Source of the DNA: Fibrobacterota bacterium
GTDB taxonomy: Bacteria > Fibrobacterota > Fibrobacteria > UBA11236
DNA: 64,000 bases
Direction of reading: 5' to 3'
Assembly: GCA_019509785.1 (NCBI GenBank)
Contig: JAEKLQ010000045.1
Coordinates: forward strand, 1-64,000
The notes under the pieces: generated by a model
Database searches by the model: none
Told to the model about the DNA's origin: nothing
The model's input: only the letters and a program-made list of their open reading frames with translations
Made by a program: the position numbers and the translations under genes
Shown here: positions 371-16,574 of the stretch, one piece after another
Position numbering within the stretch: the stretch's first letter is position 1
Layout of the letters: every line of letters starts with the position of its first letter

Positions 371-450
371 CAGGATCGCCTGGTTCGGCTTGCGATTCCG
401 GCCGCCGGGACCACCTCGGCTGGCTGCGGAGGATTTCCGTGGTCAGCTTA
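371..450 (-). pseudogene. Scrambled fragment of the 3' end of rpsA
   Basis: Three blocks match the rpsA gene of this window in the same order and orientation. Around 371-395 the exact 17-mer TCGCCTGGTTCGGCTTG is shared with about 6649-6665. Around 401-417 CGGCCGCCGGGACCAC is shared with about 6767. Around 421-449 GGCTGCGGAGG is followed by TTTCCGTGGTCAGCTT, as at about 6808-6836. The roughly 100 and 25 bases that separate the blocks in rpsA are missing. The fragment begins right after the stop codon of the beta-helix gene. It encodes nothing on its own. A collapsed duplicate of rpsA or a chimeric join could explain it. Confidence 0.6.
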
Positions 451-452
451 GG

Positions 453-2185
453 CTAGGGAATAGAAATCCTGGTCGCATCGAGAAGCCTCACCCCATTCCT
501 TTCCCCGGAAATCAGGCTCCCATTGACGCGATAATGACCGCGACCATTCCCCCCCGGGCCTGGCTTGGTTCTGGTCTCCGAGGACTCGCGAATGACTGGG
601 CCATTCAAACCGACCGTGGCGCCGAATTCATGCGCCCCGACGTCGGGGTTTCCGGAATACAAGGCGCCTGACCAAAAATCACGGCCCCCGTTTCCGGCGA
701 TCACCAATCCCTTGTTGATGCAAGGCGAACCGGCTTGTAGATGGTAGCCGTCAAGCGATGCGAAAGCCGGACCATTGGCGTTGCCATTGCCTCCGCGCCC
801 CGGATCCGTGAATTTCGGATCGGCATGGATGGCGCGGGCATCCCCGGCCGGAACCGTGACCGAGGATCCGAAATAGGCATTGTTGTCGTAGACGATGCCC
901 CCGCCCGTGGTCAAGTCGGCATTCGCTTGGGTCGACATGAAAATATTGTTCTTAAGGGTATAAGAGGCCGCCAGGAAATCGCCATAACCATACGCGGTTT
1001 TGGGGCTGTTCTTGTCATTATAAAGCACGTTGTTGTAGACGCCCGCCACCGCCTTTGAGTCGGAGTGCAGATAGATTTGGTAGCGCGAATTGTTCTGCAG
1101 GATATTATAACGGACCACGCAATCGCCGAAGGGAAACTGGCAAAGCAGCAGGCCATCGCCGTTGTCATGCATGTAATTGTATTGGATGGTGATGCGGGTG
1201 GTTCCCCTATCGGCGTCGATGCCGTTGTAATCGGCGCCGTTGGCCTTGCGCACCGTTCCATATGTTTCATTGTTCTGGACGACGATGCTATCGGAGAGAT
1301 TAATCTCGATGGCGCTGGTGCCCGCCCCCGCGCAGACATTGCCATCGACAAAGCCGTTGCGGACGCCGGTCAGGTAAATCGTGTTGCATCCCAAGGTGGT
1401 ATTCAGCTGGCTCAGGAAATTATGGCGCAATACCACTTGGGTATGCGGGAACCAGACGGTATCCGAGGCCGAATTGCGGATGGCCCAATGTAGGGCGCCG
1501 TCCCACTGCTTGGTGATGATGCCCCCGAAAGAGCAATCGCGAATGCTGCATCCTTCGACGAGGATATCTTCGAAGCGCGTCTTCACCGGATTCGCTCCCG
1601 GCTGCAAGGTTTCGAAGACGATGCCGCCCGTGCGCTTCGAGGCATCCCATCCGGCTTCGAAGGTCACGTTCGGCAGATTGTCGGCCACGTCGCCGCCGAC
1701 CCACTTCACGTCGCCGTTGACATCGTGCACGTCGCAGTTGCGGATGTAAATATGGCGAATCGTCCCGAAGTCGCGCCCGGCTATCCAAATTCCGCGCCGA
1801 TCCGCCGGCGTCGCGCCGGTATTGGTGATTTCCAGATCTTGTATTTCACAAAAGGCTTGGTTCAGCAAATAGACCGCGCTCGGGGCCGTGCCGTTCGCCG
1901 CGACGCGCGGCTTAGATCCGCTACCATACCGGCCCACCACGATGGGATGTCCATCGGCCCCCGAACCCTTGGGGCTTAATTGGCCCGCCCAAGATCCGCC
2001 TGACTTCAGTAAAATGCTGTCTCCCGGCTGGCAGACCGCGGCATTGGCCTTGGCTAGGGTTTTCCATGCCGTGGCGTCCGAAGTACCGGCACGCCCATCA
2101 TCGCCCGAAGCGGCATCGAGATAATAGTCCCTAACAGAATGCGGGCGAATAGCGAGGCCGTGCCGCGCAGCGGTCCCCTTCTCAT
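453..2185 (-). pseudogene. Secreted right-handed parallel beta-helix protein (polysaccharide-lyase-like), frameshifted near its N-terminus
   Basis: The main frame is open on the minus strand from about 2225 to a stop at 453-455. It starts like many exported beta-helix proteins (YYLDAASGDDG, then WKTLAKANA and PGDSILLKSG) and continues with repeated N-rich coils (NNETYGT, IQYNYMHDNGDG, VRYNILQNNS, YNNVLYN, LKNNIF) and the closing PDVGAHEFG typical of the family. No ATG precedes the mature part in this frame. An ATG at 2185 in another frame opens a signal-peptide-like start (MRRGPLRGTASLFARILLG), so frame is lost near 2125-2140, perhaps with a few codons. A GTG at 1940 would give a 495-residue product lacking export signal and first coil. 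Substrate unknown; pectate or similar plant polysaccharide is plausible from the family. Confidence 0.6.
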
Positions 2186-5000: not shown

Positions 5001-6410
5001 TCACTCACTATGAGAATGGTCCACGGCTGCCAATCCATGAAGGCGGGCCGCCCAGAGCGCTTGGCCGAGGGCGTCCAGTCGCGTGGCCCAGGCATGGAGG
5101 GCGCCAGGGGGCAGGGGCACCGTGGGCGGCATGGACATAAGCGCGGTGAGGGCGTTCTCGCGGGCCATGGGATCCGTGCTGCCGGGTTGGAGGGCGGTTT
5201 CCAAGGCGTCGTAAAGATGAGCGCCGGCCGAGGTCGTATCGCCGGCGCGTAAGGCCTGATGGCTTTGCGCGAGGCTCTCCATCACGATGTCGAAGTCTCG
5301 GGAGGCGCGCCGGCGGGATGCGTGAGCGGATTGGGACGGGGCCGCATAGGATGACGCGGATGCAGGTGGGAACTGGACCCAATCGGTATCGGGATCGACA
5401 GATGCGGCGGGCGCCTCGACCCGGAACGGGGGGTTGCTGCCGGGAACGGACCGGGCGAAGACCCAGCCGGCCAATCCGCCGGCCACGCTGGCGATGATGG
5501 CGATACCATGCCCGCGGCCGGGCATCAACAATTGGCTCAAGACCTCGGCAATCACCCAGATGACGGAGAACTTGGCGATGGAGACGCGCAACGCCGATGG
5601 GTCCGTGATCCCCGTATCGCGGATTATAATAACTTCATGGCGATGGGTGGTCGCGTAAGCGGACATGATTCCCGCGAGCGCGCCTGCCGGTCCCACTAAG
5701 GCGAAGCCGGGAACGCCGCCCTTAAGCGCGCTGAAGGCCATGAAAGCCGCGCCTCCGACGATGCCGCAGGCCAGGAAGATGCCCACGAAACCGCCGGTCC
5801 CCCAGTGCCGCTCCATCGCCTCCCCCGCCAGCCACATGAACCATAGCGTGAACGCCAGATGGACCCAACTCGCATGGGTAAAAAGCGAAGTGATGAAATT
5901 GAATGGGTTGGGATGGGCGGGCGTTAATCCCAATCGGTATACGAGGGAAACCCGCCGCATCTCCCCGAGCCGGGCAGCCACGACATCCGTTCCGCCGCCG
6001 CCGTCCCAGGTAGCGCCCACGTTACCCTGCCTTCCCGGCCCGCCCGTTCCCGGCGAACGCGCGATGTCCATGCCCGGAAGCCGCAGGATACCCTGATCCT
6101 CCGCGGAGGCGGACGCGCCCTCCTCCCCATCCGCCCTGGCGGGCCGGGCCCTCTCATCGGCGATGACCGGTTGTACGCCGCCCGGGCGCTCGACTATACC
6201 GAGAGCTTCGCCCGCGGAAAGGATGCGATAGAGCGGACTGGATTTGGCGCAGGATGAGAGCGGACCGAAGCGGAGCAGGTCCGATGCTGAGGCGTACTTC
6301 ACCTTATTCCGCCAGGCGAAAAGCTGGATCAGCACCATCAGCGCCAGAATCCCGATCAGCCCTGGGCGCACCTTGGGCTCGTGCCCTTCTGTCCGGACGG
6401 GGAAGTACAT
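5001..6410 (-). CDS. Rhomboid-fold membrane protein lacking the catalytic dyad (pseudoprotease)
   Basis: The 469-residue protein has an N-terminal membrane segment (residues 17-33), a 110-residue Gly/Ala-rich linker, a rhomboid core (about 155-325) and a soluble C-terminal tail of about 145 residues. The core is recognised from NPFNFITSLFTHASWVHLAF, GEAMERHWG and two Gly-rich helices. The usual GASG serine motif reads G-P-A242-G, the histidine of the AHxxGF motif is Ser308 (IASVAGG), and the Asn after the HL pair is Thr. Proteolysis is therefore unlikely; a binding or regulatory role, as for iRhoms and derlins, is inferred. One copy of the GGTAAC-N6-GTTACC motif lies in the linker. Confidence 0.75.
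   Translation of the reverse strand: MYFPVRTEGHEPKVRPGLIGILALMVLIQLFAWRNKVKYASASDLLRFGPLSSCAKSSPLYRILSAGEALGIVERPGGVQPVIADERARPARADGEEGASASAEDQGILRLPGMDIARSPGTGGPGRQGNVGATWDGGGGTDVVAARLGEMRRVSLVYRLGLTPAHPNPFNFITSLFTHASWVHLAFTLWFMWLAGEAMERHWGTGGFVGIFLACGIVGGAAFMAFSALKGGVPGFALVGPAGALAGIMSAYATTHRHEVIIIRDTGITDPSALRVSIAKFSVIWVIAEVLSQLLMPGRGHGIAIIASVAGGLAGWVFARSVPGSNPPFRVEAPAASVDPDTDWVQFPPASASSYAAPSQSAHASRRRASRDFDIVMESLAQSHQALRAGDTTSAGAHLYDALETALQPGSTDPMARENALTALMSMPPTVPLPPGALHAWATRLDALGQALWAARLHGLAAVDHSHSE
6009..6026. repeat. GGTAAC-N6-GTTACC motif, copy 1 (one mismatch)
   Basis: Reads GGTAGC, six bases, GTTACC, inside the linker of the rhomboid-like gene. On the coding strand it is in frame as Gly-Asn-Val-Gly-Ala-Thr. 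Confidence 0.5.
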
Positions 6411-6554: not shown

Positions 6555-6582
6555 GAAGGGCTCTCCTTGCGGAGAGCCCTTC
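6555..6582 (-). terminator. Probable terminator of rpsA
   Basis: A perfect 12-bp stem (GAAGGGCTCTCC / GGAGAGCCCTTC) closes on a four-base loop that reads GCAA in the minus-strand transcript, a stable tetraloop. It lies 27 bases after the rpsA stop. The U-tract behind it is weak (CTATTTAA). Confidence 0.7.
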
Positions 6583-8645: not shown

Positions 8646-10129
8646 ATGCGGAAAATCACTGATGTAGCAGCCGACCTTGGACTCTCCCCCGATGAGTATG
8701 ACGTTTTCGGATCCTGGGGGGCCAAGCTGACACCCGCTTCGGCATTCAGTGAAGATCCCATCCCCCCGACTTCCCGGCTGGTTCTGGTCTCGGCGATAAA
8801 CCCCACCCCCGCCGGCGAAGGCAAAACCACGGTGACCATCGGCCTGACCCAGGCGGCGCGTAAACTCGGTTTCCGCGCCGCGGCCGCATTAAGGCAACCT
8901 TCGCAGGGACCGGTATTCGGGGTCAAGGGCGGGGGTACGGGCGGGGGCCAGGCGACCTTGGTGCCGCTGGAGCGGATCAATCTCCATTTTACCGGCGACA
9001 TCCACGCCGTAACAGCCGCGCATAATCTCCTCGCCGCCCTGGCCGATAACGACTGCTATTTCGGAGGGGAGAAATTGGATCCCCGCCAAATCACCTGGCG
9101 GCGCTCGATGGACATGAACGAACGGTTCTCGTAGGCCAAGGCCCGGGAGGGGTGGTGCGGGCCAAGGATTTACAGGCCGAAGGATCCATGGCTGCGCTGC
9201 TTCGCGATGCCTTGTTGCCGAATATCGCCCAGACCATCGAAGGCGCGCCGGTGCTGGTGCACGGCGGCCCCTTCGGGAACATCGCCCATGGTTGCAATAG
9301 CGTCGTCGCCACCAAGGCCGCCTTGCGCCACTCGGATCTGGTCTTCACCGAAGGCGGTTTCGGTTTCGATCTGGGCGCGGAAAAATTCCTCAATATCAAA
9401 TGCCGCTCCGCCGGCATCTGGCCCAATACTGTCGTTCTGGTAGCGACCGTGCGGGCCCTGAAAATGCATGGCGGCGCCACCCTCGCGGAGATGGCGAACA
9501 GGAATCCCGAGGCACTGGAACGGGGCATGGCCAATCTCGATAAGCATATCGAAAGCGTGCGCGCTTTCGGCCTGGAGCCTACCATCGCCTTGAACATCCG
9601 CCACGATGATCCTTCCGGCGAAGCGGAGCGGGTCATCCACATGCTCAAGGAAAGGGGAGTGGATGGCGGATTCGCCGACGTCTACTCCAAAGGCGGCGCG
9701 GGCGCGCTCGAGTTGGCGGAAAAAGTGGCCGATAAGGCGCGGACCAAGCAGCCCCGCCCGAAATTCCTGTATGAGGATTCCGACACGCCGGAACAGAAGA
9801 TCGAGAAAGTCGCCCGCACGGTATACGGGGCCAAGGGAGTGGAGTTTTCCACCACCGCCAAATCGCAATTGGCCAAGGCGGTCGCCCTCGGCTACGGGAG
9901 CTTCCCCGTGTGCATGGCCAAAACCCATTTGTCGCTCTCGGATGATCCGAAGAAGATTTGCCGTCCCCGCGATTTCACGGTTAACGTAAGGGAAGTCCGC
10001 ATCTCCGCGGGCGCGGGATTCCTGGTCTGCCTAACCGGCGAAATCATGACCATGCCGGGATTGCCCAAGGAGCCGCATTCCCGCGATATCGATTTGACCG
10101 CGGACGGGGAAATCGTCGGGGTGAAGTAA
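8646..10129 (+). pseudogene. fhs: Formate-tetrahydrofolate ligase, broken by an internal deletion and frameshift
   Basis: The enzyme makes 10-formyl-tetrahydrofolate from formate, ATP and tetrahydrofolate. The first part (8646-9134) carries the nucleotide-binding PTPAGEGKTT, the FGVKGG loop and LDPRQITWRRSMDMNE, then stops at TAG. The second part (to 10129) resumes in another frame with RAKDLQAEGSMAALL and continues to the normal C-terminus (VHGGPFGNIAHGCNS, TEGGFGFDLGAEKF, KTHLSLSDDP). Compared with the usual length of about 557 residues, some 55-65 residues are missing at 9115-9135, including the block that normally reads FDITAASEVMA. The join looks like MDMN fused to the later ERFSR, plus one lost base. 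As written it cannot make an active enzyme. Confidence 0.85.
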
Positions 10130-10983: not shown

Positions 10984-11772
10984 TTGGCCCTATCCTATCC
11001 CAGCCCGCTCGCATTCGCCCTTCGCATTTTTGCCGCGGGCCTCGCCATTGTGGCCAGCCTGGGCCTGTCTTGCGATCGCAACCGCGAGCCTCCCAGCTTG
11101 CCCTCCCCTATCCTAACCGAAATCAATCTCCGGATCGCCGATCCCGAACAAGGCATAGCGGAAGCCTCCCTGGACTGGTCCGACCCCGGGGGACAAGCGA
11201 CTTATTTCGAAGTCTACCAAAGCCTCTCCCTTGATTCGCTGGCGCGGGGATTATCGGGACCGCCCGTGGCCAAGACCGATTCCCCGGCCACGGTCCTGAG
11301 ACTGCCCACGGATCGGATACGCCCCTTCACGGTCTATTACGCTGTGCGGGCGGTACACGTAGAGGTGACCGGCCAAAAGGTGGCTTCGGATACCTTGCTC
11401 CCCGATTCCCTCACGGTGTCGCCCTCGTTAAGCATCATCGCCCCCGGGGCCGGGACCTATCAAACCGGACGCGTGCTCAACATCCGGGTCCAGAGCCAAT
11501 CCGATCCCGGCGTGACCTTGCGCCTGGCCTATTTCGAAAAAGACAGCAATGGCTGGGTCCAGAGGGCGGATACCTGTTTGCCTATGAACGCTTGCGGAGT
11601 TCCGGTTTTCGGCCATGCCGTGGAGGAAGAATCCCTGGTGCTCGCGCAGGGGGAAGCGAATGACACGATCCCCGCCTTGTTCTGCGTGATCGGGACGGAA
11701 AGCTTCCAGAGTCAACGTACGGGCTTGGCGCAATCCTTGGATTGCAACCGCTTCTTCCGGACCGGCCCATGA
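10984..11772 (+). CDS. Lipoprotein translationally coupled to the PorU-like protease
   Basis: The TTG at 10984 starts a signal peptide ending in a lipobox (LGLSC-D), so the protein is likely anchored in a membrane after processing. Residues 40-140 resemble a fibronectin-type-III fold (ILTEINLRIADPEQGIAEASLDW at the start, TVYYAVRAVHVEV at the end). The C-terminal 120 residues contain three cysteines and end in a short basic tail. The stop overlaps the ATG of the next gene (ATGA at 11769-11772), which argues for coupled synthesis and a role with the PorU-like protein. I know of no named family for it. Confidence 0.65.
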   Translation: MALSYPSPLAFALRIFAAGLAIVASLGLSCDRNREPPSLPSPILTEINLRIADPEQGIAEASLDWSDPGGQATYFEVYQSLSLDSLARGLSGPPVAKTDSPATVLRLPTDRIRPFTVYYAVRAVHVEVTGQKVASDTLLPDSLTVSPSLSIIAPGAGTYQTGRVLNIRVQSQSDPGVTLRLAYFEKDSNGWVQRADTCLPMNACGVPVFGHAVEEESLVLAQGEANDTIPALFCVIGTESFQSQRTGLAQSLDCNRFFRTGP

Positions 11773-14700
11773 GAGGAATCGATTTGCGGTCTTCCCTATG
11801 CTTGGCCCTGATCTTGGCCTGCGCTGTTTGCCTGCCTCTAGCGGCCCGGTCGGCACAAGCGACTCCGCTTCCCATCCCGGCCGATCCGGAGTGGGTGCTT
11901 GAATCCGCGGACGCTTCGGGATTGCGGTTATCGTGGAACGATGCGCATCCGGGCTCCCGCGGAGGCCCGCGGGTACTGGCCTTGGCGGTACCGCCCGGGG
12001 ATGCAGCGACCGCGACGGTGGAATGGTCCTCTTCGCCCGGAGGTAACGTAGCGGTTACCCAGGCTTCCCGCTTCCGCGACCTCGCCTTATGCGCCCTGAC
12101 CTGGGATCCGGGCGCCTCGGACGGCAGGCCCGTGAAAGCGCGCATCCGCGTGGCTTTCGCGCCGCGATCAGGAACGGCCCCCTGGCGAACCGTTTTCGCT
12201 CCGACGGAAAACTCCCCCGGCGAAGCCCATCTGAAAGGTTGGTTGGCCAACTACGCCCAGTCCCGGAATTTCCGGAGCGCCCCGGCCCTGTCCTTGGCCA
12301 AGGCCAGCGCGGATGGGCCCAGTTCCGGCGCCTCCCTGCCGGCACGGAGGGTGATCCTGAAAACCACCGGCGAGAACATCGAATACGTCCCTTATGAAAC
12401 CTTGCTGTCGGCCGGGGTTCCCTTGGAGTCGATCGATCCGCGCTATATGCGGCTCTTCCAGGATGGCCGCGAAGTTCCCATGTACATCTCCGGCGAATTG
12501 GACGGGCACTGGAACCCCGGGGATTACATCGAATTCATCGGCAAGCGCCCGGCGGGAACCAATAGCTACAACTCCTTTTACGCTTCCCACGCGGTCTTCA
12601 TCCTGGTCTGGGACGGCGGGCGGCCCGGATTGCGGGCGCCGGCCGTGCCCGTGGCATCCCGCACTGGGGGCATAGTGCCCAGCTTTCCCGCTAACGCCAA
12701 GGCCGCCCCGCCCTTCTCCGCCCACGTGCATCTGGAAAAGGATCTGGAAGTGCTCCGCATCGGCAGCACCTCGGCCGAAGAAATCATCGACCTGGGATCG
12801 CGGGTGCAGGAACAGGAGCTGACCGATTTCTGGATGTGGCAGCGCTTGGGGGTCGAAAAAGATCAGGCCCAGCTGGACCTGGATCTCCCCTACGCCCCGG
12901 CGCCGGCAACCTTGAACGGCAAGAAAGGATCGGGCGCCCTTCGCCTGACCATCAACCTGAAAGGCATCACCAATAATCCCAACGCCAATCCGGATCATCA
13001 TCTCAAGTTCCTGCTCAACGGCAACGACATCTCCTTGGTGGAGGGGCTGAACCACGATGCCATCTGGGAAGGCCAGGAATCCTATACGTGGGTTTCGCCG
13101 CTCCTGGACGCATCCATATTGAAGGCGGGCAAGAACGCCCTGGTGATCCAGAAGGTCAACGATCTCAAGACCGGCGACGGCCAGTTGGTGGAGGTCCAGG
13201 ATGCCTACGTGAATTTCGTCGAGTTGGATTTCCCTGCCGATTACGCGTCCGTGGGCGGGACGCTCGCTTTCGCCAACGCGTTCCCCGATAGCACCGGATT
13301 GCGGCTGTTCGATCTGAGAAGCTTCCCTGAGTCGGAGTTGAGCCTTTGGGATAAGCAAGGGCGAAAGCTGACCAACTTCCTCGTGACCCAGTCTGGCGCG
13401 GCCTGGAACGCCACCTTCCTGGACACCTTGACCGGGCGTACCGACTACCTGGCATGCGCCGCCTCTAAACGGGAAAGGCCGGAGGTAAGCCAGGATACCC
13501 TGGACGATCTGCTGGACAAGAACCAGGGGGCGGATTACCTGGTCATCACCCAGGGCGAATTGCTGGGCCCGGCCCTGGATTCCCTCACCGCCTTCCGGCA
13601 TAAGCAGGGACTGCGGACGCGGGTGGTACAGGCCCGCCATATCTACCAGGCTTTCGGGGACGGGTCCATGGATCCCGCGGCCATCCGCCGTTTCGTGGCC
13701 TACGCCTATTCCAATTGGGCCAGGCCCGCTCCCACCTACCTGGTCCTGGTGGGGGATGCGTCCATCGGCTTCGAGAAATCCGGCAGCACCATCGTTCCCT
13801 TCCATCCGGTGAACATCCGCGGCTGGGGCGTAGCCGCCAACGACGACTACTTCGCCAAGGTGTCCGGCGACGACGATATCGCCGATCTTTACGTGGGCCG
13901 CATTCCCGCCGCCGACCGCCAGCAGCTCTCGGACATCGTCCATAAGACCCTGTTGGCCGAAACTTCCCGGCCCATGGGGCATTGGAACAACAAGGCCCTT
14001 TTGATTTCCGGATTCGAATCGTCCTTCATGGCGCAGAACCAGGTTTTGCAGCAACTGGCCGTGGCCGATGATCGCCAATACTCCCGCATCGATCTCTTCC
14101 CGGGCTCGCCCCTTTACCGCAAGTCCCTGCCGGAGTTCTTCAACCAGATGGACTCCGCTTTCACCTTGGTGAGCTTCGTCGGCCATGGGGGCGGATCGAT
14201 CTGGTCGGATGCCGGCGTCCTGACTTTGAAAGATCTTGATGGCGGGAAGCTGAAGGGCGAGTTCCCCATCCCGCTGGTCGCGTCGATCACTTGCCTCACG
14301 GGTTTCTTCGAGGATTTGTCGGCCCGCTCCCTGGGCGAAGAGATGTTGCGCCTGCCCCAGGGCGGGGCCGCGGGTTTCTACGGGGCCTCGGGTTATATCT
14401 CCAGCGTGGCGGGCGAAGCCTTGTCCTCGGAAGTCTTGCGGGCGGCGGCCTCCAACGCTTACGCCGTCAACGGGGCCATCATCGGCCAGGCCGAGACCAT
14501 GGTCAAGCTCCGCACCGGCGACGCCTTTCTGCCCATCCTGGCGGAGTTCAACCTGCTGGGGGATCCTGCCTTCGGAGCCTCCTTCCCCCGCCGCGAAGGC
14601 TCCTTGGCCCTCGATCCGCAAGTGCTCGCCCAGGGTTCGTCCCTGGGATACAAGGCCACCGGCTTGGCGATCACCCAGGGTAACGCACAAGTTACCGTGG

Positions 14701-16574
14701 ACCTCGATGATTCCGCGGAAAGCGCGGCCTCAGCCTCCGTATCAGGTTCCTCCCTGGCAGGAACGCGAACGTTCCCGGCCGCCGTTCCGCCCATTCAAAA
14801 CGGGAAGGTCATCGCGCATTATTGGGATGACAAGACTTCCCGGGTGGTTTCGGCGCCATTCAGCAGCTTGGACTGGTTGCTCGATTCGATCGCCATCGAT
14901 CCCGCCAACGCGGCGCCGGGGGACTCGGTGCTCATCCTGGCCCGGCTCTCCACGGCCTATTCCCATATCGCCTTCGCGGGCGGAGTGGTTTCCTGGGCGG
15001 TGGGCGGCGAGACCGCTCCGCTGTTCCCGGTGGACAACCAGGTGGGCATGGCCACCCAGGACGGTTCGCATCTGGTTTCGGTCGCGAAGGTGAAGGTGGA
15101 CGTTCCCGCCGCCGATATGGCGGGACCCAAACTCCACGTCGCCTTCCGGTTGCTGGTGAATCGCCTGGACGGGCAAGGCCAGGCCTTAGGTCCCATCCCC
15201 AATCTCAGCTCCCGCACCTATGCCTTACCCTTGTCCGATGTCCCCCGTTTGGAGCTGCCGGCGCAAGCCTTCGGCCTTCCGGTGCAGGACGAACTGGGGG
15301 TTTGGGTGCGCGTCCACAACCGCGGGTACGGGATCGCGCAAGGGTTCCATGTGGCCTTGACGCGCGATGCCGCGGGGACGGAACCGGTGATCGATACGCT
15401 TGCTTATACGAAATCCATGGGGCTGGGCGGATTGGACTCGGTCTTCTTCCCCCTGGCCGATTCCATGGTTAAAGGAAAGCGCCTTCGCGCCGTGCTCATC
15501 CCCGACAAGGAAGGCGATGCCGCGCAGAACGGCCTATCCCAGGATACCGTCTTCAATGTGCTAACCGCCGCGCTCGGCTCCCGCGCGGATACCTTGCGTC
15601 TGGATTCCCTCGGCCGTTGCCTCGCCTTGTCGGCCGGGTTATCCAAGCCCCGCCGCGCCTTCGCCTGGCCCTTCGCGGTGGCCTCCCTGCCCGCCCATCT
15701 CGCGCCGGCGCAGGGTAACCTTCCCGTTACTGCCTGGCGCATCGATGCGGCCGACTTCGCCGGCGCCGGCTTCGTCCTGGCGGTGCCCGGAGCTTCGGCC
15801 GCGAAGCTATCCGCCGCGCCGACGGCCCGCGTCGCCTGGCATTACCGATCACCCGGTGGCCGAACCTGGTTGAAGCTGGACAGCGTCGCGGGACCGCCGG
15901 GGGCCTGGTCGGGCTTTCGGGGCGGCGATTACGCGCTTCTCCTAAATAATGACGCCACCCCGCCCTTGATCCAGTTCAGCGGCCGGGGACAGGCATTGTT
16001 GGATGACGACTACGTTCCGCTCACGACGGCAATCGACGTGGTTTTGCGGGACGGGGAGGGAATCGACCTTTCCCTGCATCCGCCGATCCTGGCCAGCCGC
16101 CAACAGCCGCTCGATTCGGCCAACCATGCCATCGAAAGCGGGGACCGCTTCCCCACCCTGGCGCGCCTGAGTTTCATGCCCGCGCGCCGCGCTGAACAGG
16201 ATTCTCTCACCATCACCGCCCGCGATGTCTCCGGCAACCTTTCCACCCGCACCCTGGCCTACCGCATGGGCGATAAGTTGGCCATCCGCGATTTAGGCAG
16301 CTACCCTAATCCCTTCGCCGATACAGCCGTGTTCGTATATAGCTTGACCGATTACTGCGATAAGGTGGACTTGCGCATCTACTCGCGCGCCGGCCGGCCC
16401 GTGCGCAGCCTGTCGCAACGCAACGTGGTCGGATACCAGGAAGTGGCGTGGGACGGCCATGCCGACAATGGCGGCGAAGTGGCCAACGGCCTGTACTTCC
16501 TGAAGGTGACCGCGAAGGCGGGCTCCAAGGAATCGACGCGGCTGTATAAGCTCTTCAAGAAAAAGCGTAAGTAG
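11769..16574 (+). CDS. porU: PorU-like gingipain-family (C25) protease of the type IX secretion system
   Basis: The start at 11769 gives a clean signal peptide (LCLALILACAVCLPLAARSAQA); the open frame extends nine codons further upstream. The 1,601-residue protein has an N-terminal beta-rich region, a C25 peptidase domain (about 580-930) with the catalytic pair His806 (FVGHGG) and Cys842 (ASITCLTGFF), long beta-sandwich modules, and a FlgD-Ig-like C-terminal domain opening YPNPFADTAVFVYSL and ending LKVTAKAGSKEST. PorU is the cell-surface sortase that cleaves C-terminal signals of type IX cargo and attaches them to surface glycolipid. The GH5 enzyme at 37863 carries a matching C-terminal domain. 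Three copies of GGTAAC-N6-GTTACC lie in this gene. It could instead be a secreted C25 protease of other function. Confidence 0.75.
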   Translation: MRGIDLRSSLCLALILACAVCLPLAARSAQATPLPIPADPEWVLESADASGLRLSWNDAHPGSRGGPRVLALAVPPGDAATATVEWSSSPGGNVAVTQASRFRDLALCALTWDPGASDGRPVKARIRVAFAPRSGTAPWRTVFAPTENSPGEAHLKGWLANYAQSRNFRSAPALSLAKASADGPSSGASLPARRVILKTTGENIEYVPYETLLSAGVPLESIDPRYMRLFQDGREVPMYISGELDGHWNPGDYIEFIGKRPAGTNSYNSFYASHAVFILVWDGGRPGLRAPAVPVASRTGGIVPSFPANAKAAPPFSAHVHLEKDLEVLRIGSTSAEEIIDLGSRVQEQELTDFWMWQRLGVEKDQAQLDLDLPYAPAPATLNGKKGSGALRLTINLKGITNNPNANPDHHLKFLLNGNDISLVEGLNHDAIWEGQESYTWVSPLLDASILKAGKNALVIQKVNDLKTGDGQLVEVQDAYVNFVELDFPADYASVGGTLAFANAFPDSTGLRLFDLRSFPESELSLWDKQGRKLTNFLVTQSGAAWNATFLDTLTGRTDYLACAASKRERPEVSQDTLDDLLDKNQGADYLVITQGELLGPALDSLTAFRHKQGLRTRVVQARHIYQAFGDGSMDPAAIRRFVAYAYSNWARPAPTYLVLVGDASIGFEKSGSTIVPFHPVNIRGWGVAANDDYFAKVSGDDDIADLYVGRIPAADRQQLSDIVHKTLLAETSRPMGHWNNKALLISGFESSFMAQNQVLQQLAVADDRQYSRIDLFPGSPLYRKSLPEFFNQMDSAFTLVSFVGHGGGSIWSDAGVLTLKDLDGGKLKGEFPIPLVASITCLTGFFEDLSARSLGEEMLRLPQGGAAGFYGASGYISSVAGEALSSEVLRAAASNAYAVNGAIIGQAETMVKLRTGDAFLPILAEFNLLGDPAFGASFPRREGSLALDPQVLAQGSSLGYKATGLAITQGNAQVTVDLDDSAESAASASVSGSSLAGTRTFPAAVPPIQNGKVIAHYWDDKTSRVVSAPFSSLDWLLDSIAIDPANAAPGDSVLILARLSTAYSHIAFAGGVVSWAVGGETAPLFPVDNQVGMATQDGSHLVSVAKVKVDVPAADMAGPKLHVAFRLLVNRLDGQGQALGPIPNLSSRTYALPLSDVPRLELPAQAFGLPVQDELGVWVRVHNRGYGIAQGFHVALTRDAAGTEPVIDTLAYTKSMGLGGLDSVFFPLADSMVKGKRLRAVLIPDKEGDAAQNGLSQDTVFNVLTAALGSRADTLRLDSLGRCLALSAGLSKPRRAFAWPFAVASLPAHLAPAQGNLPVTAWRIDAADFAGAGFVLAVPGASAAKLSAAPTARVAWHYRSPGGRTWLKLDSVAGPPGAWSGFRGGDYALLLNNDATPPLIQFSGRGQALLDDDYVPLTTAIDVVLRDGEGIDLSLHPPILASRQQPLDSANHAIESGDRFPTLARLSFMPARRAEQDSLTITARDVSGNLSTRTLAYRMGDKLAIRDLGSYPNPFADTAVFVYSLTDYCDKVDLRIYSRAGRPVRSLSQRNVVGYQEVAWDGHADNGGEVANGLYFLKVTAKAGSKESTRLYKLFKKKRK
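12042..12059. repeat. GGTAAC-N6-GTTACC motif, copy 2 (perfect)
   Basis: GGTAAC, GTAGCG, GTTACC in the PorU-like gene, in frame as Gly-Asn-Val-Ala-Val-Thr. Confidence 0.6.
14679..14696. repeat. GGTAAC-N6-GTTACC motif, copy 3 (perfect)
   Basis: GGTAAC, GCACAA, GTTACC in the PorU-like gene, just after the peptidase domain, in frame as Gly-Asn-Ala-Gln-Val-Thr. Confidence 0.6.
15714..15731. repeat. GGTAAC-N6-GTTACC motif, copy 4 (one mismatch)
   Basis: GGTAAC, CTTCCC, GTTACT in the PorU-like gene, in frame as Gly-Asn-Leu-Pro-Val-Thr. Confidence 0.55.

Follow-up and report, generated by a model that had tools for sequence, protein, structure and literature searches.

Has a bacterial rhomboid that appears to have lost its entire active site been kept for binding membrane proteins, or is it a gene in decay? 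This question is raised by a gene in the first 64,000 nucleotides of contig JAEKLQ010000045.1 of a Fibrobacterota bacterium (assembly GCA_019509785.1), a stretch hereafter called the window, its product being the window protein. Rhomboid pseudoproteases are an established subject of study in eukaryotes, and the bacterial origin of their binding role has so far been argued, in the parts of that literature available to us, from a single protein, YqgP, which itself remains active. Within the accessible texts of the literature outside subscription papers and protein databases, we found no described natural bacterial rhomboid without both Ser and His, or without Ser, His and Asn; a mycobacterial survey reports, in its available part, active-type rhomboids and one presumed pseudogene (PMC2989971).

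Fold and architecture of the window protein

The gene and the parts of its product are as follows.

5001-6410, minus strand: gene of the putative pseudo-rhomboid, an ORF of 469 aa plus stop with a Pfam Rhomboid match
6300-6371, minus strand: TM1, residues 14-37 (hydropathy peak at 14-32; model helix 16-47; GlpG alignment from model residue 13)
5919-6296, minus strand: TM1-TM2 insertion, residues 39-164, of low model confidence (pLDDT <50 at 42-62 and 98-138, among others)
5436-5918, minus strand: rhomboid core TM2-TM6, residues 165-325 (pLDDT block means 75-97 over 161-320; Z 17.8 to GlpG)
5004-5435, minus strand: C-terminal tail, residues 326-469, a disordered part followed by a helical, TPR-like part (helices 360-468), shorter than in active orthologs

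The first-pass annotation had recognized a rhomboid fold at 5440-5950, and both sequence profiles and structure prediction bear this out. Pfam Rhomboid (PF01694) matches residues 170-319 with E=1.3e-17 (64.8 bits, cut-off 22.6), the protein accounts for the Rhomboid match at 5454-5903 in the whole-genome search, and the ORF matches over its full length a profile of long-form rhomboids in which the window protein is itself included. The AlphaFold2 model, computed from an input alignment of 48 sequences, has pLDDT block means of 75-97 for residues 161-320 and 78-90 for residues 361-460; alignment A3 comprises the window protein and 47 of 80 relatives' loci from genome contigs. Superposition of the model on Escherichia coli GlpG (6pj7) using VIA-align gave Z 17.8 and an rmsd of 2.6 over 168 residues, spanning model residues 13-328, and this alignment together with the Pfam score places the protein in the PF01694 family with its six-TM rhomboid core. 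The verdict on the fold was taken from VIA-align and not from Foldseek, whose E-values for the whole 469-residue model, with the rhomboid as one domain, are weak (best 1e-3). The GlpG alignment begins near model residue 13, which identifies the N-terminal helix as the first core helix, TM1, with only about 14 residues ahead of it; the "linker" of residues 39-164 is accordingly inserted between TM1 and TM2, and by analogy with loop L1 of GlpG it probably lies on the periplasmic side. The window protein thus shares the six-TM fold of GlpG and differs from it by the long TM1-TM2 insertion, the TPR-like tail and the absence of the catalytic Ser, the catalytic His and the oxyanion Asn.

Replacement of the active-site residues

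The replaced motifs and the TM6 motif map to the following positions.

5847-5861, minus strand: HLAFT, residues 184-188; Thr188 in place of the oxyanion Asn, with His184 retained (codon positions checked)
5682-5693, minus strand: GPAG, residues 240-243; catalytic Ser replaced by Ala242, with Pro241 before it as in iRhoms
5475-5492, minus strand: ASVAGG, residues 307-312; Ser308 stands in for the catalytic His, and Gly312 for the Phe of AHxxGF
5466-5480, minus strand: TM6 GxxxG (G311 and G315), present both in the window protein and in its ortholog from genome G002, the two proteins predicted to be dead

Codon positions and an alignment of 49 rhomboids confirmed the three replacements read at first pass (Ser to Ala242, His to Ser308 and Asn to Thr), the last of which, originally given without a number, is T188. 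In this alignment, from which five of 22 Fibrobacterota loci were set aside (L002, L042, L045, L051 and L087), the Asn column reads N in 48 rows and T in the window protein, the Ser column S in 48 and A in the window protein, and the His column H in 47, S in the window protein and L in the G002 ortholog (Fibrobacteres bacterium RYN_348; L009/L064/L094). Loss of Ser and Asn is therefore confined to the window protein among the aligned homologs, and loss of His is shared with G002; the residue preceding Ser is P in the window protein and A, Y or F elsewhere. A profile search over loci L001-L090 yielded 73 distinct Fibrobacterota ORFs, of which 69 carry the combination N-A-S-H, the others being one partial frame, L019 (S-to-L), the window protein and the G002 ortholog; this tally was made apart from six divergent GxS-type rhomboid loci (L006, L049, L053, L054, L056 and L061), in which Ser and His are present by eye. 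N-A-S-H was likewise read in 76 of the best 80 relatives in genome contigs, with GASA instead of GASG in one of them; L148 is misaligned and retains AHLGG by eye, L115 (masked) and L170 (contig end) are unreadable, and the remaining exception is again the G002 ortholog. The triple replacement is genuine and, among relatives, rare. Five invariant columns are altered within the three catalytic motifs, and the two residues expected of an active protease, Ser in GxSG and His in AHxxGF, are replaced (Ala242, Ser308). The window protein is almost certainly catalytically dead, a conclusion as firm as sequence alone allows.

L019, a rhomboid of a different type in a genome of the same class (G027), carries GALG for GASG, a Ser-to-Leu change, and retains His and Asn.

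Ancestry and probable order of the losses

A profile built from four long forms, searched against 167 genomes of the phylum, matched proteins of nine genomes (G012, G014, G064, G065, G082, G087, G088, G092 and G098) plus G002; in G064 and G065, whose ORFs have 477 and 470 residues, the first hundred profile positions lie outside the matched stretch. In a tree that covers 20 of the 80 relatives' loci from genome contigs, computed after removal of six divergent rows of the 49 (L003, L005, L006, L053, L059 and L148) and containing no eukaryotic rows, the 11 long-form rows including the window protein form one clade (support 99/92), within which the window protein is sister to the G002 ortholog (100/99). 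Ser, His and Asn are all retained in nine of the 11, that is, in all except these two sisters. The nine active forms share the architecture of the window protein (TM1, insertion, core and C-terminal tail) and differ from it by their intact residues and longer tails. By its place in the clade and by this architecture, the window protein belongs to the long-form Fibrobacterota family and is judged to derive from an active long-form protease with six TM, a TM1-TM2 insertion and a TPR-like C-terminal tail.

The G002 ortholog retains GASG and the oxyanion Asn, its catalytic His is replaced by Leu and the Phe of AHxxGF by Cys. Four invariant core columns (176, 192, 308 and 312) are altered in both proteins, and for this reason we place a single loss of the His in their ancestor: the His, and with it the Phe of AHxxGF, had probably disappeared before the two lineages separated. 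The simplest history would then have Ser and Asn lost, and Pro gained, later and in the window lineage only. Two separate losses of the His could also account for the alignment, and the differing residues at 308 (Ser versus Leu) would fit such a history. The intact orthologs from other genera of the phylum, the half-dead G002 protein and the fully dead window protein would represent a natural series leading from a protease either to a pseudoprotease or to decay. The G002 protein has no C-terminal tail, and has the appearance of a half-dead intermediate.

The long linker and tail had been regarded at first pass as accompanying a pseudoprotease function, a view that the comparison does not support: the intact long forms carry both, and the tail of the window protein is shortened, not expanded. 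The insertion measures 126 residues in the window protein, 67 in G002 and 68-99 in the nine intact long forms, all of which have a tail longer than that of the window protein. Aligned by hhalign to a profile made from the tails of seven active long forms out of nine, the window tail covered columns 2-88 of 149 (probability 84, E=7.2e-6), and the active-tail profile in turn matched YrrB (PDB) with E=8.4e-4. The match to YrrB, a TPR protein, and the helical-repeat structural matches of the model are the grounds for the TPR-likeness of the tail; these structural matches have Z 9.8 or less, a score also attained by common arrangements of helices, and the Pfam TPR_6 match on the tail is below cut-off. 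No continuation of the tail was found past the stop codon of the window ORF in any frame, nor any tail in the G002 ortholog, other frames included. From these profile matches we infer that the window tail is a TPR-like domain, shortened relative to the active orthologs. In GlpG, both the N and C termini are cytoplasmic, and with six TM and this topology the tail would be cytoplasmic as well.

Retention or decay

The strongest competing explanation holds that the long form became dispensable to this genus after the loss of the His, was lost repeatedly, and survives in two drifting copies that are now functionless. We consider such an eroding relic quite possible, if on balance doubtful. In its favor, the pair formed by the window protein and its G002 ortholog has a dN of 0.58, exceeding by a factor of two to four the values for five further pairs of orthologous rhomboids from the same two genomes (0.15, 0.16, 0.26, 0.28 and 0.30; stop-to-stop frames, ends untrimmed), and the end branch of the window protein is 1.26 against 0.37 for G002 and a median of 0.42. 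Of the 29 core columns that show no variation among the nine active long forms, the window protein has lost eight; its tail is truncated, and that of G002 is absent. Moreover, the long form was not found by profile search in four of the genus's six genomes (G001, G003, G004 and G005) or in the sister genus (G006-G009), the weaker profile matches there being other rhomboids. An rpsA tree groups G000 with G005 (86/93), and G002 with G004 and G003 (94/89, 97/100*), in agreement with the tree of the canonical rhomboid, which was built without G003; this species order and the absence from G003, G004 and G005 imply that, under vertical inheritance, the gene was lost three times or more. The assemblies of the genus are 90-98% complete, and incompleteness could account for some of the absences. 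A tblastn search of about 1.5 kb downstream of rpsA in the other genomes detected no gene remnants (best E 0.065), with G005 unreadable there because its contig ends and no rpsA match in G009. The G002 gene itself sits elsewhere than downstream of rpsA, its place not being conserved.

Against decay, the frame has stayed open over 469 codons in the window and 293 in G002 at a near-saturating synonymous distance of ~1.3-1.5, whereas in a neutral simulation of the window ORF the probability of encountering no stop was 0.007 at 0.2 substitutions per site, and no frame out of 1000 stayed open at 0.4. The dN/dS of the pair is below 1, at ~0.4 (0.53/1.3 for the core, 0.58/1.46), a rough value with synonymous sites near saturation. 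The remaining 21 of the 29 invariant core columns are kept, as is the TM6 GxxxG, and the GC3 of 0.77 is typical of a gene, being within the 0.72-0.86 of five of six neighboring genes; the second-position GC of 0.55 is above the 0.33-0.50 of the neighbors. Five of the eight lost columns fall within the 10 motif columns of the 29 (P=0.066), a concentration of losses in the catalytic motifs that is no more than suggestive. Should the gene nevertheless prove to be in decay, it would serve as a warning that the replacement of all catalytic residues does not alone show a new function.

A possible non-cutting role

We slightly favor a retained, non-cutting role in client binding or as an adaptor over the eroding relic, and give it about an even chance. 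A dead site nested in an active clade, the open frame, the dN/dS of ~0.4 and the conservation of fold and GxxxG speak for it; fast evolution, patchy presence in the genus and a tail shortened here and gone in G002 speak against it. The preference is a small one, and is due to the precedents of YqgP-S288A and of the eukaryotic dead rhomboids and to the presence in the genome of two FtsH genes and of five further rhomboids with apparently intact Ser and His. According to the available parts of the respective papers, the dead S288A form of YqgP still presents MgtE to FtsH, so that the adaptor function needs no catalysis (PMC7231995), and eukaryotic dead rhomboids hold or divert membrane clients (PMC3149277, PMC8641752).

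We thus propose, tentatively and at somewhat less than an even chance, that the window protein is a natural bacterial pseudoprotease that arose by stepwise loss, converged on GPAG and has been kept as a dedicated client receptor that does not cleave, or as an adaptor, serving the machinery of membrane proteolysis. The His and the Phe of AHxxGF would have been lost first, in the common ancestor with G002, followed in the window lineage by changes of Ser, Asn and the residue before Ser that produced GPAG, with the fold and the TM6 GxxxG kept. Where the bilayer is locally thinned, the rhomboid core might still recognize transmembrane helices and hold them uncut. Such clients could be presented to the ATP-dependent membrane protease FtsH, as by YqgP-S288A in Bacillus, or be diverted from the active rhomboids of the cell, as iRhoms inhibit rhomboid-dependent signaling in animals; the remaining TPR-like tail, on the cytoplasmic side, may serve as the contact to a partner.

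YqgP (GluP) of Bacillus subtilis is a precedent in both architecture and function, being a rhomboid with a C-terminal TPR domain whose S288A form acts as an FtsH adaptor; it differs from the window protein in being active, in having an extracellular CTD and in carrying a soluble N-terminal metal-sensing domain that the adaptor role requires together with an unoccupied active site (PMC7231995, in the part available). These differences weaken the analogy: the about 14 residues before TM1 of the window protein leave no place for an N-terminal soluble domain, and the tail of a six-TM rhomboid would be cytoplasmic.

Derlins such as Derlin-1 and Dfm1, the other group to which the protein had been likened at first pass, share with it a dead rhomboid fold. 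VIA-align gave Z 12.2 with a chain of the human ERAD retro-translocation complex (7y4w) and 11.8 with Derlin-1 (7czb), and the TM6 GxxxG, reported as needed in derlins (PMC8641752), is present as G311 and G315; it also occurs in G002 and in active rhomboids and is therefore non-discriminating. The window protein and G002 both have a WR pair, at residues 33-34, where TM1 ends; a WR at the place corresponding to that of derlin L1 was not identified. Derlins belong to a different lineage, as far as a tree without eukaryotic rows can tell, and a p97-type partner is not expected; the likenesses do not identify the window protein as a derlin.

The neighborhoods of the 11 long-form loci, some of them only 6-10 kb long, were compared by all-against-all BLAST of their ORFs, and only the rhomboid is common to all; no gene order recurs from one genus to another in these loci, which counts against the non-cutting role. 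The two loci of genus g5 have one flanking gene in common, and three weak shared-ORF pairs link other loci (G098-G092, G088-G087 and G092-G065). A prohibitin/SPFH-like ORF, recognized by eye at 407-1195 (plus strand) of L067, adjoins the active long-form rhomboid of G088. We dropped this ORF as a sign of a link to FtsH, as it is absent from the other long-form loci.

Residual catalysis and relation to iRhoms

A still active protease using other residues, for instance Ser308 with His184, appears highly improbable: the oxyanion-side His184 is kept and, in the alignment, Ser308 occupies the catalytic His position, yet the Ser, His and Asn columns are all altered, and a proline at the place of Pro241, the iRhom proline before the Ser of bacterial AarA, virtually abolished activity in vitro, with the S-to-A form as a control (PMC3149277, in its available part). 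We know of no rhomboid with a swapped dyad.

The resemblance to iRhom1 and iRhom2 (RHBDF1/2), of which the first-pass annotation had suggested a possible bacterial counterpart, includes the fold (Z 16.5, rmsd 5.4 over 206 residues with iRhom1, 9xy4), the loss of Ser, an insertion between TM1 and TM2, and GPAG, which comprises the invariant iRhom proline before the Ser position (GPx) and is identical in the iRhom1 and iRhom2 PDB chains in the HMMER alignment. The iRhom homology domain (IRHD) is described, in the part of the source available, as a cysteine-rich region of about 230 aa with 16 conserved Cys between TM1 and TM2 (PMC6451368); the window insertion has 126 residues with one Cys. The long N-terminal cytoplasmic domain of iRhoms is likewise missing, and the GlpG alignment indicates six rather than seven TM. 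In the tree without eukaryotic rows, the window protein is nested among bacterial, Fibrobacterota rhomboids (100/99 and 99/92), which speaks against descent from iRhoms; as its sister G002 has GASG, the proline would be younger than the split of the two, and the likeness would then reflect convergence. A true iRhom, acquired by common descent or by transfer from a eukaryote, is for these reasons a reading to which we give virtually no credence, even though iRhom1 and iRhom2 top the phmmer list, with E-values of 0.086 and 0.2 that are not significant. By domain content, the window protein is not an iRhom; the motif and fold are indeed alike, but placement inside a clade of intact proteases makes the shared GPAG convergence at best.

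Surroundings in the window

A scan for promoters and terminators found nothing. A GC-rich hairpin that it did not report was read by eye at ~6556-6582, separating the rhomboid gene from the end of rpsA; the rhomboid gene may thus be transcribed on its own. Further along, a formate-tetrahydrofolate ligase is split into two ORFs in different frames on the plus strand (8646-9134 and 9152-10129), which match positions 12-173 and 233-555 of the 556 of PF01268, with about 59 positions missing between them, which points to a disrupted gene or to an assembly error at this place. The ORF at 11742-16574 (plus strand) encodes a protein of 1610 residues, a peptidase C25 that carries a FlgD-like Ig domain and is presumably PorU-like; its match to a type IX secretion signal domain is weak and below cut-off.
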